Part shown: one piece after another, positions 34,880 through 41,208 of the stretch
Layout of the letters: each line of letters opens with the position of its first letter
Position numbering within the stretch: position 1 is the first letter of the stretch
Made by a program: the position numbers and the translations under genes
The notes under the pieces: generated by a model
Seen by the model: only the letters and a program-made list of their open reading frames with translations
The model's database searches: none
What the model was told of the DNA's origin: nothing
Assembly: GCF_001424485.1 (NCBI RefSeq)
Contig: NZ_LMQC01000021.1
Span: forward strand, 187,249 to 251,248
Source: Modestobacter sp. Leaf380
Lineage (GTDB): Bacteria > Actinomycetota > Actinomycetes > Mycobacteriales > Geodermatophilaceae
Reading direction: 5' to 3'
DNA: 64,000 nt

Positions 34880-36082
34880 GTGCCGTCCGACCGGGTCCAG
34901 CAGCTGGTCGACGCGCTGGCCGAGCGGCTGCAGCGCTCGGTGGTCGTCGACGACCCGCAGGTCCGGATGCTGGTCACCAGCCGGCACTTCGGCGACGAGG
35001 ACGACGTCCGGGTGCGCGCGGTGCTGCAGCGCGACGCCGGGCCCGCGGCCGTGGCGCACGTGCTGGGTTCCGGGGTCGCGTCCTGGCGTCAGGCGGGCTG
35101 GATCCCGGCGGAGCCCTCGATCGGGATGCACCCGCGCTGGTGCGTGCCGTTGCGCTGGCAGGGCGAGCTGCTGGGCCTGCTGATGGTCATCGACGCGGCG
35201 TCCGCGCTGGCCGACGACGAGGTCGCGGTGATCGGGTCGGCCGCCGGCGAGCTGGCCGCGGTGCTGGTCGGCGACCGGCACGCCGCCGACGCCGCGACGG
35301 CCGCCCGGGACGCCGTCGTCACCGCGCTGGTGGGCCGCGACCCGGCCGCCCGGACGGCGGCGCGGGCCGAGCTGGCCCGGACCGGTGCGCTGCCCACGGG
35401 CCGGCACGTCCGCGCGGTCGTGCTCGCCCTGGACGGCGTCGCCCCCGCGGACACCGAGCACGGCCGGGCCGCGGTCCGGCGCGGCCTGGTCGCGATGACC
35501 TCACGGTCGGCGGGCACCGTCCTCGGGGCCGTCACCGACGCCGGCGGCAGCGCGCTGCTGGTGACCGCCGGCCCGACGGAGGACGCCACGGTCGCCGGCC
35601 TCGCGGGCCTCGCCGTCGCGGAGGTGGCCGCGGTGGCCGCCGGCCGGTTCGGCTGCGTCGCCGGCACCGGCCCCGCCGTCGAAGGGCTGGACCGGGCGTG
35701 GACGTCGCACCGACAGGCCGAGCTGGCCACCCGCGCGGTGCCCCGGTTGGCACCCGGCCCGGTGGTGGACGCCGACGGGCTGGGCGTGGCCGGCGTGCTG
35801 CTGCGGGTGCCCCGAGAGGAGTGGGACGAGACCGCACTGCCCGTGGAGCTGGCCGCGCTGGCCGCCGGGGACCCGCAGGGCCGGCTGACCGACACCCTCA
35901 CCGCCTGGCTGGACGCCGGCGGCAACGCCCCGGCAGCCGCCGACGCCCTGCGGGTGCACCGCACGACGCTGCACCACCGGCTGGACCGGGTCCGCGAGCT
36001 CACCGGCGCCGACCTCGACGACGGCGGCACCCGGCTGCGCCTGCACCTGGGGCTCACCGTCGCGCGGCTGCTGGACGGCTGA
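34880..36082 (+). CDS. PucR family transcriptional regulator (GAF-like sensor, CdaR-type HTH)
   Basis: A 400-residue regulator. The N-terminal part (about 1-130) has GAF-like segments such as WCVPLRWQGELLGLLMVIDA. The C-terminus has the PucR HTH_30 signature LTAWLDAGGNAPAAADALRVHRTTLHHRLDRVRELTG (split here over about 345-380). The family controls purine, aromatic or other catabolic genes. The hydrolase-SDR pair starting 118 bp downstream on the same strand is the natural target (inference). The start is fixed by the -10 box six bases upstream. Confidence 0.87.
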   Translation: MPSDRVQQLVDALAERLQRSVVVDDPQVRMLVTSRHFGDEDDVRVRAVLQRDAGPAAVAHVLGSGVASWRQAGWIPAEPSIGMHPRWCVPLRWQGELLGLLMVIDAASALADDEVAVIGSAAGELAAVLVGDRHAADAATAARDAVVTALVGRDPAARTAARAELARTGALPTGRHVRAVVLALDGVAPADTEHGRAAVRRGLVAMTSRSAGTVLGAVTDAGGSALLVTAGPTEDATVAGLAGLAVAEVAAVAAGRFGCVAGTGPAVEGLDRAWTSHRQAELATRAVPRLAPGPVVDADGLGVAGVLLRVPREEWDETALPVELAALAAGDPQGRLTDTLTAWLDAGGNAPAAADALRVHRTTLHHRLDRVRELTGADLDDGGTRLRLHLGLTVARLLDG

Positions 36083-36199
36083 GTCCTCGCCAGCGAGCAC
36101 GTGAGGGGCCCACCGCGCTCGCCGCGGCCGTGGTGTCCGCCGTCACAGGCAACCGATGATCACCCGGTGGGTCGACGGCGACCCGGCAGGAGGCACGAC

Positions 36200-37057
36200 A
36201 TGGCCACGTTCACCACCACCGACGGCGTCGAGATCGACTTCCGGGACTCTGGTGCCACGGCCAGCGGGCGCACCCTGGTGCTGTTGCACGGCTGGTCGCA
36301 GTCGAGGGCCACCTGGGACCGCGCCGTCCCGGCGCTGGCCGCGCAGCACCGCGTCGTCAGCTACGACCACCGCGGCCACGGCCGCTCCGGCAAGCCCGAC
36401 CACGGTGCCCGGGTCGCCCGGCTGGCCGCCGACCTCGCCGAGCTCGTCGCGCACCTGGGCATCGGCTCCTACGACCTGGTCGGGCACTCGATGGGTGCCT
36501 CGGTGGCCTGGAGCCACATCGACAACCAGGGCACCGGCGCGCTGGACTCCCTGGTGGTCGTCGACCAGCCCAGCGCGTGCGTCGTGCTGCCCTGGATGAC
36601 GCCGGAGGAGGGCGCCGCAGCCGGCGCGATCCTGGACTTCCCGAGCACCGAGGGGTTCGTCGGTGCGGTCGGGGCGCCCGATGCGACCGAGACCCGCCGC
36701 GCGTTCCTGGTCTCGATGCTGTCCGACGTGCTGCCCGAGGACGACCTGGCGTTCCTGTTCGGGGAGAACCTGCAGATGCCCGGCCCGTGGGGCGCCCGGC
36801 TGCTGCTGGACCACGCCATGCAGGACTGGCGGGACGTGCTGCCGCGCATCGACGTCCCCACGCTGGTGGTGGCCGGGGAGGTCAGCCACGTCGCGCCGGC
36901 GTCCCAGCAGTGGACCGCCGAGCACGTCCCCGGCGCACGGTTGCGGACCTTCGGCGCCGACGAGGGCGGCTCGCACTTCCCGTTCTACGAGGGCCCGGCG
37001 CACTTCACCCGTGTGCTGTTGGACTTCATCGCCGGCACCCCCGGCCCCCGTGGCTGA
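36200..37057 (+). CDS. Alpha/beta hydrolase
   Basis: A 285-residue hydrolase. The HG oxyanion region is LVLLHGWSQSRATWD, the nucleophile elbow is GHSMGAS (near 96-102), and the distal acid and His lie near VVAGEVSHVAP and EGGSHFPFYEGP. This architecture is shared by esterases, haloperoxidase-like enzymes and C-C bond hydrolases. A good AGGAGG precedes the ATG. It overlaps the following SDR gene by 8 bp, so the two form an operon and may act in sequence on the same small molecule. Confidence 0.85.
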   Translation: MATFTTTDGVEIDFRDSGATASGRTLVLLHGWSQSRATWDRAVPALAAQHRVVSYDHRGHGRSGKPDHGARVARLAADLAELVAHLGIGSYDLVGHSMGASVAWSHIDNQGTGALDSLVVVDQPSACVVLPWMTPEEGAAAGAILDFPSTEGFVGAVGAPDATETRRAFLVSMLSDVLPEDDLAFLFGENLQMPGPWGARLLLDHAMQDWRDVLPRIDVPTLVVAGEVSHVAPASQQWTAEHVPGARLRTFGADEGGSHFPFYEGPAHFTRVLLDFIAGTPGPRG

Positions 37058-37853
37058 CGGGCGGCTGGCCGGCAAGGTCGCGATCGTCTTCGGCGGTGGG
37101 CTGAACACCGGCGGCCCGGACGGCGTCACCAGCATCGGGGCAGCCACCGCCACCACGTTCGCCCGGCACGGTGCCCGGGTCGTCGTCGTCGACCGGGACG
37201 TCGCGGCCGCCGGACGCACGGTGGACGTCGTCCGTGCCGAGGGCGGGGAGGCACTGGCACTGGTCGCCGACGTGACCGACGGCGAGCAGGTGCAGGACGC
37301 GGTCGCCGCGGCGATCGACGAGCACGGCCGGCTGGACGTCGTGCAGAACACGGTGGGCGCGACCCGGCTGGGCGGGGTCGACGAGCTGACCCTGGCCGAC
37401 TGGCAGCGGACGCTGGCGCTGAACCTGGACAGCGTCTTCCTCACCGCGCAGGCCACGCTGCCGCACCTGCTGGTGCGCGGCGGGTCGATGGTCAACGTGT
37501 CCTCGACGGCGTCGATCCGCTGGACCGGCTACCCCTACCCGGCCTACGCCGCGGCCAAGGCGGGGGTCAACCAGCTGACCCGCTCGCTGGCCCTGCAGCA
37601 CGCCGCGCGCGGGGTGCGGGTGAACGCGGTGCTGGCCGGGCTGATCGACACCCCGCTCGTCTACCAACAGCTCGCCGGGGACGCGGCGCCCGACCGGGTC
37701 CGGGCCGAGCGGGACGCGCAGAGCCCGACCGGCCGGATGGGCTCCGCCCAGGACGTCGCGGACGCCGCGTTGTTCCTGGCCTCGGACGAGTCGCGGTACG
37801 TCAACGGGGTGCTGCTGCCCGTCGACGGCGGGCTGGCGGCCCGGGTGCTCTAG
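37050..37853 (+). CDS. SDR family oxidoreductase
   Basis: A 267-residue classical short-chain dehydrogenase. The cofactor loop is VAIVFGGGLNTGGPDGVTSIG (Gly-rich, longer than usual), with Asp in VVDRD favouring NAD. The catalytic Ser is in NVSSTASIRW and Tyr-Lys in YPAYAAAKAG. The end VNGVLLPVDGGLAAR is the usual FabG-like C-terminus. It starts at GTG 37050 inside the hydrolase gene. The stop overlaps the convergent VOC stop by 4 bp (CTAG). Confidence 0.87.
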   Translation: MADGRLAGKVAIVFGGGLNTGGPDGVTSIGAATATTFARHGARVVVVDRDVAAAGRTVDVVRAEGGEALALVADVTDGEQVQDAVAAAIDEHGRLDVVQNTVGATRLGGVDELTLADWQRTLALNLDSVFLTAQATLPHLLVRGGSMVNVSSTASIRWTGYPYPAYAAAKAGVNQLTRSLALQHAARGVRVNAVLAGLIDTPLVYQQLAGDAAPDRVRAERDAQSPTGRMGSAQDVADAALFLASDESRYVNGVLLPVDGGLAARVL

Positions 37854-38236
37854 CGCTGGTCCCGCCGCAGCGGGTGGTCGGCAGGCACCTCGACGAGCAC
37901 GACGGGGACGCCGTCGGGGTCGGCCACCCAGCACTCGACCAGCCCCCACGGCTCGCGCACCGGGCCGCGGGTGACCGGGACGCCGAGCGCAGCCAGCCGG
38001 TCGTGCTCGGCGTGCACGTCGCGGACCTGCAGCCACAGGCTCATCCCGGCCGGTGCGGTGTCCCCGCGGCCGGACACCTCGAGCAGCCCGCCGCCCCCCA
38101 GGAAGTACACGACGCCCCGGTGCTCGGGTGGCCCGAACTCCCGGTGCACGGCCAGCCCCAGCGTGCCGGCGTAGAAGGCGTGGCTGGCATCGGGGTCGGT
38201 GGGCCGCAGGAGCAGCCTGCTGCTGAGGACGTCCAT
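37850..38236 (-). CDS. VOC (glyoxalase/bleomycin-resistance) family protein
   Basis: A 128-residue protein with two beta-alpha-beta-beta-beta modules. Segments such as RLLLRPTDPDASHAFYAGTLG and ECWVADPDGVPVVLVEVP are typical; the Glu/His positions for metal are partly present (HRGVVYFLG, EVPAD). The function (isomerase, dioxygenase or drug binding) cannot be told. The ATG at 38236 has CATCAT six bases upstream on its strand, shared with the divergent gene's -10 box. Confidence 0.85.
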   Translation of the reverse strand: MDVLSSRLLLRPTDPDASHAFYAGTLGLAVHREFGPPEHRGVVYFLGGGGLLEVSGRGDTAPAGMSLWLQVRDVHAEHDRLAALGVPVTRGPVREPWGLVECWVADPDGVPVVLVEVPADHPLRRDQR

Positions 38237-38253
38237 CGGTCGATGATGGACCC
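38237..38253. promoter_or_regulatory. Bidirectional leaderless promoter with shared -10 element
   Basis: Only 17 bp separate the divergent start codons at 38236 (minus) and 38254 (plus). Rightward the -10 is GATGAT (38242-38247) and leftward it is CATCAT (38243-38248 read on the minus strand). Each is followed by exactly six bases and then ATG or GTG. The two hexamers are the same near-symmetrical patch, so one melted region could fire both ways, with start sites 18 bp apart. Confidence 0.7.
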
Positions 38254-38862
38254 GTGATCGACCCCGAGCTGCTCGCCGCCGCCTCCTGGACCACCGCACC
38301 GGCCGCCGTCGAACACGTCGACGGCACGCTGCGGGTCACCGCCGTCGAGGGCAGCGACGCCTGGCGGCACACCTCCTACGGCTTCGTGCACGACGACGCG
38401 CACGGCCTGCTCGCCCCCTTCGGCGCCCGGGACGCCCTCGAGGTGTCCTTCGACGTCGCCTACGGCCGGCAGTTCGACCAGGCCGGGCTGCTGCTGCGCG
38501 CCGGCGCGCAGGAGTGGGTGAAGGCCGGGGTCGAGGTCTCCGACGGCGTGCCGCAGGTCGGCGCCGTCGTCACGCACGGCACGTCGGACTGGTCGGTGGC
38601 CCCGGTGCCCGACTGGGCCGGCCGCCGGGTGACGGTCCGCGCCAGCCGGGACGGCGACGCGGTGACCGTGCGGGCGCGGGTGGACGACGAGCCGTACCGG
38701 CTGGTCCGGGTCGCACAGGTCGACCCGGCCCTCGAGCTGCGCGCCGGGCCCTACTGCTGCGCCCCGACCCGGGCCGGGCTGACCGTCGTCTTCACCGGCT
38801 GGCGGCGGACCACCCCGGACGCCGCCCTGCACGACGAGGGGGCCGGGACGACCGGTGGATGA
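38254..38862 (+). CDS. DUF1349 family protein
   Basis: A 202-residue predicted jelly-roll (concanavalin-A-like) protein of the DUF1349/YesU type. Seen segments are FVHDDAHGLLAPFGARDALEVSFDVAYGRQFDQAGLLLRAG (in pieces), QEWVKAGVEVSDG and GAVVTHGTSDWSVAPVPDW, which are diagnostic. Members may bind carbohydrates; no enzyme activity is known for most. No signal peptide is visible, so it is cytoplasmic. The stop overlaps the GGDEF-EAL gene start by 8 bp, suggesting coupled expression. Confidence 0.82.
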   Translation: MIDPELLAAASWTTAPAAVEHVDGTLRVTAVEGSDAWRHTSYGFVHDDAHGLLAPFGARDALEVSFDVAYGRQFDQAGLLLRAGAQEWVKAGVEVSDGVPQVGAVVTHGTSDWSVAPVPDWAGRRVTVRASRDGDAVTVRARVDDEPYRLVRVAQVDPALELRAGPYCCAPTRAGLTVVFTGWRRTTPDAALHDEGAGTTGG

Positions 38863-40723
38863 CCCGCCGGTGAACACCTCGCGACGTGGGCCCGGGGACC
38901 TCGCCCGCCCGGGTGAGGGAGCGGCACCGGCCCTGGGGCGGGGGTCGGTCGCCGTCGACACCAGGGACGTGATCGACGTGCTCGGCCTGGACCGAGGCCA
39001 CCTGACCGCCCTCCACGACGCTGACGCCGGGCTCCCCGGCCTGGCCGCGCTGGCCCGCCCCGTCCCGGTGCTGGCGGCCGACACGACCATGGAGCAGGTC
39101 GACCGGGTCTTCGCCCGGCACCCGGAGGTGCCCTGCGTCGCGGTCGCCCACCCCACCGTCCCGGCCCTGCGCGGCCTGCTGGAACGCACCCGGTTCGACG
39201 CCCTGATGAGCGGCCCCTTCGGCTACGGCCGGTCGCTGCACGCCCGCCGCGAGCTCCTGGACACCGCCCAGTGGGACGCCCTGCTCCTCACCCCGGGCAC
39301 CGGCGTCGTCGAGGCCGCCTCCCGCGCCATCACCCGCTCGCCCGGCTTCGTCCACGACCCGGTGCTGGTCGCCACCGAGTCGGGCACCGCCGCAGTGGCC
39401 ATGCCGGCGCTGCTGGCCGCCCTGGCCCGGGCACTCGCCGAGCGGGCACTGACCGACCCGCTCACCGGGCTGGCCAACCGGGCCGCCTTCTTCGGCCGGG
39501 TCGAGGAGTCCTGCCGGCGCAGCGCCACCCAGCCCGGGCACCAGAGCGCCGTCGTCTTCTTCGACCTCGACGGGTTCAAGGCGGTCAACGACACCTGGGG
39601 CCACGAGACCGGCGACGAGCTGCTCGTGGCGGTGGCCGCCGAGCTGCGCCGGGTCGCCCGCCCCACGGACCTGGCGGCGAGGCTCGGTGGCGACGAGTTC
39701 GCCGTCTGCCTGGACATCGACGGCGGAGGGACGGCGACGGGCACCGCTGCCGCCATCGCCGGCCGGCTGCACGCCGCGGTGTCCCGGGTCGGCCGGGCCA
39801 CGCCGGGCGGTGTCCGGGCCTCGGCCGGCGTGGCCGTCTGCGCCCCGGGCGCGGCCATCGACGCCGGCGACCTCGTCCGCGCCGCCGACCTGGCGATGTA
39901 CACGACCAAGCGGGCCGGTGGCGACGCCGCGTCCGAGCCCGTCCTGGTCCACGCCGCCGCCGACGTCGACCCGCTGCAGAACTCCACCATCGGTGCCGCC
40001 GCAGCAGCCGGCGAGCTCGTCCTGGACTACCAGCCCATCGTGGAGATGACCACCGGCCGGGTGGTCAGCCTGGAGGCGCTCGTGCGCTGGCGGCACCCGC
40101 GGCTGGGGCTGCTGGCGCCGGGGGCCTTCCTGCCCGCGGTCGACCGCCGGGGCCAGCTGCCCGACCTCGACGACTGGGTGCTGCGCACCGCGTGCCGGGA
40201 GTTCGCCACCTGGTCCACCGACGGGCCCTTCCTGAACGTCAACGTCAGCCCGGCGACCCTGCTGGCCCCCGGGTTCCTGGACCAGGTGCTGGCCGCGGCC
40301 GGCGCGGGCGGCCTGCCGCCGGAGCGGCTGCGGATCGAGGTGCCCGAGCACCTCCTGGTCGACCAGCTGGACGCCGTCGCCGACACCCTGTCAGCGCTGC
40401 GCCGCGCCGGGGTCGCACTCACCCTGGACGACGTCGGGGCCGGGGACACCTCCCTGCGGCACCTGCGCGACGTCGACACCGACGGGATCAAGATCGACCG
40501 GTCCTACGTCGCCGGCGCCGTGGACGACGTCAAGGACCGGGCGCTCGTGCAGCTGCTGGTGGCCTTCGCCGACCGGACCGGCCTGGCGGTGACCGCGGAG
40601 GGCGTCGAGACCGTGGAGCAGCGCGACCTGTTGACCTCGATGGGCTGCCGCTACGGACAGGGCTGGCTGTTCGGCCGCCCCGGCCCGCTGCCGGCGCCCT
40701 CCCCACGACCGACGCGGGACTGA
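38855..40723 (+). CDS. GGDEF-EAL bifunctional cyclic-di-GMP protein
   Basis: A 622-residue soluble protein. A CBS-like N-terminal region (about 60-190) is followed by a GGDEF domain with the LGGDEF active loop intact and DPLTGLANRAAF before it, and an EAL domain beginning LVLDYQPIVEM with SLEALVRWRHP. EAL catalytic residues NVNVSP, EVPEH, DD, KIDRS and AEGVET are present, though the usual DDFGTG loop reads DDVGAG. It may both make and break c-di-GMP, with the N-terminal part as sensor. No TM helices are seen. Confidence 0.9.
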   Translation: MDDPPVNTSRRGPGDLARPGEGAAPALGRGSVAVDTRDVIDVLGLDRGHLTALHDADAGLPGLAALARPVPVLAADTTMEQVDRVFARHPEVPCVAVAHPTVPALRGLLERTRFDALMSGPFGYGRSLHARRELLDTAQWDALLLTPGTGVVEAASRAITRSPGFVHDPVLVATESGTAAVAMPALLAALARALAERALTDPLTGLANRAAFFGRVEESCRRSATQPGHQSAVVFFDLDGFKAVNDTWGHETGDELLVAVAAELRRVARPTDLAARLGGDEFAVCLDIDGGGTATGTAAAIAGRLHAAVSRVGRATPGGVRASAGVAVCAPGAAIDAGDLVRAADLAMYTTKRAGGDAASEPVLVHAAADVDPLQNSTIGAAAAAGELVLDYQPIVEMTTGRVVSLEALVRWRHPRLGLLAPGAFLPAVDRRGQLPDLDDWVLRTACREFATWSTDGPFLNVNVSPATLLAPGFLDQVLAAAGAGGLPPERLRIEVPEHLLVDQLDAVADTLSALRRAGVALTLDDVGAGDTSLRHLRDVDTDGIKIDRSYVAGAVDDVKDRALVQLLVAFADRTGLAVTAEGVETVEQRDLLTSMGCRYGQGWLFGRPGPLPAPSPRPTRD

Positions 40724-40728
40724 ACCGG

Positions 40729-41208
40729 TCACCCTGCGGGGCACCGGCCCGAGTGCACCAGCTGCGTCGTCCAGAGGCCCGGCAGGACCTCGCGGTGACC
40801 CAGCTCGACGAAGCCCGTCCGCGTGTACAGCGCCCGGGCGGGCGCGTTGGCCCGCCCGGTCGACACCGTGGTCGGTCGTCCCGCGGCCCGGTCGAGGACG
40901 GCGGCCAGCAGCGCCGTCCCCACCCCGCGACGGTGGGCCGAGGGGGCGACCACCAGCCGGTCGACGTCGAGGCCCTCCGGCGCGGCCGTCCAGGCCACCG
41001 CGCCCACGAGCCCGTCCGGACCGGTGGCGGCCAGCCACTGCAGGGGTGCCGCACGCAGCTCCGCGAGCGTCTCGTGCAACGGCGGGATGCGGTCGTCACC
41101 GATCAGCGCGGCCTCCACCCGGTAGGCCTCGCGCTGCAGCTGCTGGAGCCGGAAGGCGAGGTCGTCGTCCCGACCGGGGACGACGGACGTGATCCACGGG
41201 GTCGTCAC
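40729..41208 (-). CDS. GNAT family N-acetyltransferase
   Basis: A 159-residue GNAT. The acetyl-CoA pyrophosphate loop is VVAPSAHRRGVGTALLAAVLD (R/QxxGxG/A), followed by NAPARALYTRTGFVELGHRE, the usual last strand and helix. The substrate is unknown. GTG 41208 has GAGGAT (41215-41220 on the minus strand) six bases upstream and no Shine-Dalgarno, so it is likely leaderless. It is convergent with the GGDEF-EAL gene, 5 bp apart. Confidence 0.87.
   Translation of the reverse strand: MTTPWITSVVPGRDDDLAFRLQQLQREAYRVEAALIGDDRIPPLHETLAELRAAPLQWLAATGPDGLVGAVAWTAAPEGLDVDRLVVAPSAHRRGVGTALLAAVLDRAAGRPTTVSTGRANAPARALYTRTGFVELGHREVLPGLWTTQLVHSGRCPAG

Follow-up and report, generated by a model that had tools for sequence, protein, structure and literature searches.

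The VOC/DUF1349 junction

We analysed a stretch of 64,000 nucleotides (nt) from Modestobacter sp. Leaf380 (the window), in which a gene of the VOC/glyoxalase family and a DUF1349 gene diverge from a very short junction. The two start codons are separated by 17 bases, with 18 bp between their first bases (VOC ATG at 38236 on the minus strand, DUF1349 GTG at 38254 on the plus strand). Read directly, the plus strand runs from CAT (38234-38236) through cggtcgatgatggaccc to GTG (38254-38256). An original prediction had held that both genes are transcribed as leaderless mRNAs from one shared -10 element in this gap. Its coordinates and its spacing of 17 bp were right on direct reading, and so was the six-base distance from each putative -10 hexamer to its own start codon (GATGAT at 38242-38247 for DUF1349, CATCAT at 38248..38243 for VOC). 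That the two hexamers are the same patch was right only for a core of five shared bases (38243-38247); the whole hexamers merely overlap. Each hexamer occupies positions -12 to -7 of its start codon, and each lacks T at -12. The core ATGAT is symmetric, in that A38243 stands at -11 relative to the plus start and at -7 relative to the minus start, and T38247 the other way round, which gives the reciprocal -7T/-11A pairing on the two strands. At -18 there is T on the plus strand (T38236), but C on the minus strand (opposite G38254).

No four-base match to the Shine-Dalgarno sequence AGGAGG was read within 20 nt upstream of either the VOC or the DUF1349 start. A consensus sigma-70 scan of 37700-38950 found no -35/-10 pair, and an Rfam scan of 36000-41000 gave nothing at gathering score. 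Features are collected in Table 1.

Table 1 Features of the junction and its flanking genes (positions within the window).
Feature	Position	Strand	Remarks
Spacer between start codons, 17 bp	38237..38253		cggtcgatgatggaccc; read directly
GATGAT, putative DUF1349 -10 (-12..-7 of GTG)	38242..38247	+	Score 7.17, 35th percentile of 115 training starts
CATCAT, putative VOC -10 (-12..-7 of ATG)	38243..38248	-	Score 5.03, 7th percentile of 115 training starts
ATGAT core common to both strands	38243..38247		Gives A-11/T-7 to each; read directly
Predicted DUF1349 transcription start, G of GTG	38254	+	Inferred from -10 position
Predicted VOC transcription start, A of ATG	38236	-	Inferred; also supplies T at -18 of plus promoter
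VOC/glyoxalase-family gene, 128 amino acids	37850..38236	-	ATG 38236..38234; Pfam PF00903 Glyoxalase, E 7.5e-15
DUF1349 gene, 202 amino acids	38254..38862	+	GTG 38254-38256; Pfam PF07081 DUF1349, E 6e-58
GGDEF-EAL gene	38855..40723	+	Overlaps or directly follows DUF1349 end; Pfam; our gene caller starts it at 38870

The leaderless position in this genome

We took stretches totalling 1,996,965 bases of the 4.76-Mb genome, window included, and called genes with our own codon-usage caller, which is blind to upstream motifs. This gave 1,823 genes with 311 divergent pairs (622 divergent starts). A-11/T-7 was found at offset 0, where both junction elements have it, in 117 of the 622 divergent starts, with 51 at offset -1, 29 at -2 and between 4 and 13 at each of the remaining offsets from -9 to +6. 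Before tandem starts it was found at offset 0 in 36 of 571 close and 66 of 615 other cases. Both putative -10 elements of the junction thus have the leaderless offset that is commonest in this genome, and the offset counts suggest that leaderless promoters are widespread in it. In the 117 divergent starts with A-11/T-7, which include the two starts of the window, the base at -12 is C (0.40), T (0.34) or G (0.26) and never A, and G stands at -6 in 0.65. Because -12 is C, T or G at such starts, GATGAT and CATCAT look ordinary locally despite having no T at -12.

In order to score the two elements we trained a -10 weight matrix on 115 divergent starts picked for A-11/T-7, those of the window being left out. 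The DUF1349-side element is ordinary among these training starts and the VOC-side element is weak (35th versus 7th percentile). Among 52,656 RTG sites, 0.22% score as high as the plus element and 0.61% as high as the minus element. Both strands are as good at one of 806 CAY-N17-RTG places, which is the VOC/DUF1349 junction itself; the two scores are not independent, since the core is common to both. With alternative starts allowed, no other pair in the 2.0-Mb sample unites a gap of 17 with A-11/T-7 on both strands. Four further combinations have that gap, but A-11/T-7 on neither strand, and six other divergent combinations (gaps 25 to 59) have both elements, but as separate ones.

Conservation of the two elements

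We collected 105 distinct VOC relatives, with the own genome counted once. The aligned first codon is a start codon in 99 of them, and the other six were excluded. A-11/T-7 precedes the VOC start in 49 of these 99 relatives. Many of the remaining relatives are from Streptomyces, where the start is apparently an ATG one codon earlier. We also chose a close set of 43, made up of 30 loci, among which four belong to other families, and a further 13 titled as Geodermatophilaceae-type genera. In this set A-11/T-7 is present in 33, shifted by one base in 7 more and neither in 3; when the own genome and the four loci of other families are left out, it is present in 30 of 38 and shifted in 6 more. Base frequencies in the close set are A-11 0.79, G-9 0.79, A-8 0.77, T-7 0.79 and G-6 0.86, and VOC relatives mostly have NANGAT at the -10 position, compared to CATCAT here.

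The DUF1349 gene begins with VIDP in all seven members with a DUF1349 match among nine genus genomes. By eye, the element before DUF1349 in six other genus loci is mostly GATGAT-, GAGGAT- or CATGAT-like, at the offset or one base from it, and the genus locus L033 has GATGCT at the -10 position. Outside the genus, A-11/T-7 precedes some in-frame start near the aligned beginning in 14 of 18 loci, nearly always as TANNGT before ATG, a count in which two entries are the same locus and the permissive choice of start favours matches; two more loci are one or two bases off. Each gene thus usually carries a putative -10 of its own at the leaderless offset, even where VOC and DUF1349 are not neighbours.

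The junction itself is intact within the genus in the own genome and in G005, which retains the divergent pair with a shared CATCATG. When the nine genus genomes were searched for the related spacer, only G005 and G008 had a perfect match. At the G008 locus (L003, with the matching contig L119 of a metagenome-assembled genome; the G008 assembly is 73% complete) VOC is kept and DUF1349 has decayed, so far that it is recognisable in its first codons and mostly not beyond (L119 about 2830-2985, and L003). Aligned by eye, the core is ATCAT in both G005 and the L003/L119 locus.

Recurrence across the order

Pattern searches were run over 150 genomes of the order, and we counted the sites from the listed rows. 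The pattern CAYN5TANNNTAN5RTG has 67 sites in 48 of the 150 genomes, compared to 19 and 13 sites for the codon-phase-matched control spacers N8 and N2; the N6 spacer, which is not phase-matched, has 58 sites in 47 genomes. Counts for reversed patterns, frequently higher than the forward counts, were not used as controls because the ATNNNAT background differs from that of TANNNTA. We then checked for coding frames at 40 of the 67 N5 sites (a non-random sample that followed the order of the list and skipped six), at all 19 N8 sites and at 20 of the 58 N6 sites, chosen by us. Frames were found on both sides at 5 and on one side at 24 of the N5 sites, at 1 and 5 of the N8 sites, and at 1 and 13 of the N6 sites. 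With 24 one-sided against 5 both-sided among 40, the order-wide excess would consist mainly of one-sided leaderless genes. The both-sided class does exist in the order: pairs named by Pfam are AidB-like acyl-CoA dehydrogenase/PaaX, FUR/aminotransferase IV, SRPBCC/NUDIX and, at N6, NAPRTase/ClpS. Pfam gave no match on either side of L241, or on the one side of L276 that was scanned. At L369:190-1822, a TACCCTA core lies between the divergent NAPRTase and ClpS genes, 6 nt from each start, and a site different by one base is found in G177.

A parallel case lies in the own genome, where birA and pccB (named by Pfam) diverge from one TACGCTA that is 6 and 7 nt from their starts (C1 about 411470-411491, also L298). 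As in VOC/DUF1349, divergent genes flank one symmetric core; the differences are a full TANNNTA core, start codons 5-7 nt away from it, and, in the five loci where both lie close, a distance of 18-20 bp from one start codon to the other. We found TANNNT before an in-frame start, no more than two bases from the leaderless position, in 27 of 30 BirA loci of the order, and because of this birA looks leaderless well beyond the family. The symmetric TANNNTA is 5-7 nt from an in-frame BirA start in 9 of the 30, namely in all six loci from the family and 3 of 24 from others. Five of the loci examined, namely L305 and four of the six family loci, have the PccB start at 6-7 nt from the core. The distance is at least 36 nt in the family loci L299 and L300 and in four further genus genomes, which were fetched because they match the pattern. 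The N6-pattern matches in the genus (G001-G004) have BirA on one side only, with the PccB start 66-73 nt from the core. The symmetric birA core is thus kept in the family, and the closeness of both starts only in part.

The murB/methyltransferase pair (C1:656408) was considered as a second shared core and rejected, as by eye the family members put the murB start further in, with its own -10. In many family loci (L328-L357) murB and the methyltransferase gene diverge with two separate close -10-like elements, each next to its start codon (also by eye).

Relation to known promoters

In the bidirectional promoters described by Warman, Grainger and colleagues, one symmetric -10 serves both strands (PMC12825309, PMC10268837). 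Their commonest spacing of transcription starts is 18 bp, since -7 and -11 then coincide reciprocally, and T at -18 is described as most frequent and not as required (PMC10268837). The original prediction had referred to known bidirectional promoters with about this spacing and symmetrical -10 elements, and this agrees with the published geometry (PMC10268837). The VOC/DUF1349 junction resembles them in its predicted starts 18 bp apart, its reciprocal -7T/-11A and the -18T on one strand (38236). It differs in that both predicted RNAs are mRNAs beginning at start codons, and neither PMC12825309 nor PMC10268837 contains the word leaderless.

In Mycobacterium tuberculosis, most primary transcription starts have a TANNNT -10 centred 7-12 bp upstream and no -35 motif, many lie at start codons, and closely juxtaposed divergent promoters are common; prpD/Rv1129c is a divergent pair in which both mRNAs are leaderless (PMC3898074). 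The likeness to our junction is in the -10 without -35 and in the predicted starts at start codons, whereas T-12 is missing at VOC/DUF1349, and one -10 core for two leaderless genes is not described in the available excerpts of that study (PMC3898074). For lysG/lysE of the same species, divergent, overlapping promoters were mapped by RNA sequencing and one lysE transcript is leaderless (PMC5648196). The leaderless one is made from a second lysE promoter, which depends on lysine, with involvement of a LysR-type regulator, and the available portions of the article describe no shared -10 with two leaderless mRNAs (PMC5648196). In Deinococcus-Thermus, leaderless expression proceeds from a -10 adjoining the open reading frame (PMC12340547), which is also the arrangement predicted here; the words divergent and bidirectional do not occur in the main text of PMC12340547. 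Two leaderless genes sharing a -10 were not described in the titles and abstract openings on leaderless together with bidirectional or divergent promoters, although this does not establish their absence from print. Nor was a common -10 of two leaderless genes described in the titles and abstract openings of the matches listed for overlapping promoters and leaderless transcripts. The VOC/DUF1349 junction would join at one core elements that are each known, namely the bidirectional -10, leaderless mRNAs and juxtaposed divergent promoters.

Interpretation and alternatives

We consider that the junction is probably a compact bidirectional promoter in which one shared core would serve two leaderless mRNAs, and likely a credible compact variant of the known bidirectional promoters. 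RNA polymerase with the main sigma factor would bind the near-symmetrical ATGAT in either orientation, and transcription would begin, in either direction, some 7 nt downstream of the -10, which places it at the VOC ATG on one strand and at the DUF1349 GTG on the other. One leaderless mRNA would arise from each orientation and would be translated from its first codon. The two binding modes of the polymerase would exclude each other, and the first codons of each gene would serve as upstream promoter DNA of the other. The proposal of the original prediction is borne out as far as both starts have a -10 at the modal leaderless offset, the elements are kept in relatives and the 18-bp reciprocal -7/-11 geometry is the published one; against it, the spacing is 20 bp in the two related species with the junction, and the VOC-side element is weak.

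Several further results also weigh against a shared core. In G005 and L119/G008, where the start codons are 20 bp and not 18 bp apart, an in-frame ATG lies 9 nt upstream of the GTG in each, and because of this the leaderless starts are ambiguous there; in the second of these loci DUF1349 has decayed, and when the G005 and window junctions were aligned automatically the core was not matched up. In the window, the VOC score of 5.03 is at the 7th percentile of training starts, and a CAGCGT on each strand would start RNA 83 nt upstream of the start codon with scores of 7.36 compared to 7.17 (plus) and 5.47 compared to 5.03 (minus). As these sites score similarly, additional leadered transcripts may be made on both strands. 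With N2, N5, N6 and N8 alike, the own genome lacks any match to the strict TANNNTA pattern; the window site does not fit CAYN5TANNNTAN5RTG, as it has no T at either -12 position. Across the order, both-sided coding at the strict geometry (5 of 40) does not clearly exceed that of the control (1 of 19). Our start caller is simple, and it was wrong at murB.

The main rival is that the patch is a real leaderless -10 for one gene only, more likely DUF1349, and that the other gene is leadered from inside its neighbour or barely expressed. The unequal scores, with DUF1349 the stronger, are in line with this, as are the excess of one-sided over both-sided coding at the strict geometry and the L119/G008 locus, which keeps VOC and the patch after the decay of DUF1349. 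However, VOC relatives without an adjacent DUF1349 conserve the element at the same place, so a VOC -10 is to be expected here, and DUF1349 relatives without VOC likewise keep theirs. We hold the one-sided promoter to be unlikely, at odds of about one to three.

It is less probable still that both genes are leadered, with A-11/T-7 being a Shine-Dalgarno-like AGGA translation signal or chance, and transcription starting upstream inside the opposite gene. VOC relatives often have AGGATG, whose AGGA at -11..-8 could be a Shine-Dalgarno sequence, and the CAGCGT sites are -10-like and upstream on both strands. Yet the close-set frequencies of T-7 and G-6 are unlike AGGAGG, divergent starts have A-11/T-7 three times as often as close tandem ones, as would be expected of a promoter, and neither strand of the window has the four-base Shine-Dalgarno match. 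Finally, a mini-ORF ATGATGGACCCGTGA (MMDP, 38243-38257) overlaps GTGA and could couple DUF1349 translation in a longer transcript, which is very improbable, as the frame is present here but not conserved and the corresponding ATG is in frame with DUF1349 in G005 and L119.

Returning to the bidirectional core with two leaderless mRNAs, we put forward a wider reading only tentatively. In leaderless-rich Actinomycetota one five-base core could define a pair of promoters together with their transcription starts and start codons, all within about 23 bp. Such a double-leaderless design may recur and be kept in some lineages, as in VOC/DUF1349 in the genus, birA/pccB in Geodermatophilaceae, and the single loci NAPRTase/ClpS, SRPBCC/NUDIX, FUR/aminotransferase and AidB-like/PaaX elsewhere in the order, with a leaderless ATG also supplying the opposite -18T. 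If this is true, the junction would be a near-minimal one for divergent genes, having the promoter, transcription start and translation start of both in 23 bp, and the coding sequence of each gene would double as promoter DNA of the other. With it, competition between polymerases at a symmetric -10 could be tested cleanly, free of effects of a 5' untranslated region. The rule CAY-N5-TANNNTA-N5-RTG with its degenerate forms would find such junctions and help correct start-codon annotation in GC-rich Actinomycetota. A small consequence, exemplified by 38236, would be that the frequent -18T of one strand is furnished by a leaderless ATG on the other.

Neighbouring genes

The DUF1349 gene and the GGDEF-EAL gene are possibly co-transcribed. 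Since the GGDEF-EAL gene begins at or overlaps the DUF1349 end, the plus promoter may also drive the gene of a cyclic-di-GMP enzyme. On the other side, an SDR gene (plus strand, ending at 37853) and VOC (minus strand, ending at 37850) converge with an overlap of 4 bp. Directly upstream of DUF1349 in G004 and G006 there seems to be an SDR-like C-terminus.
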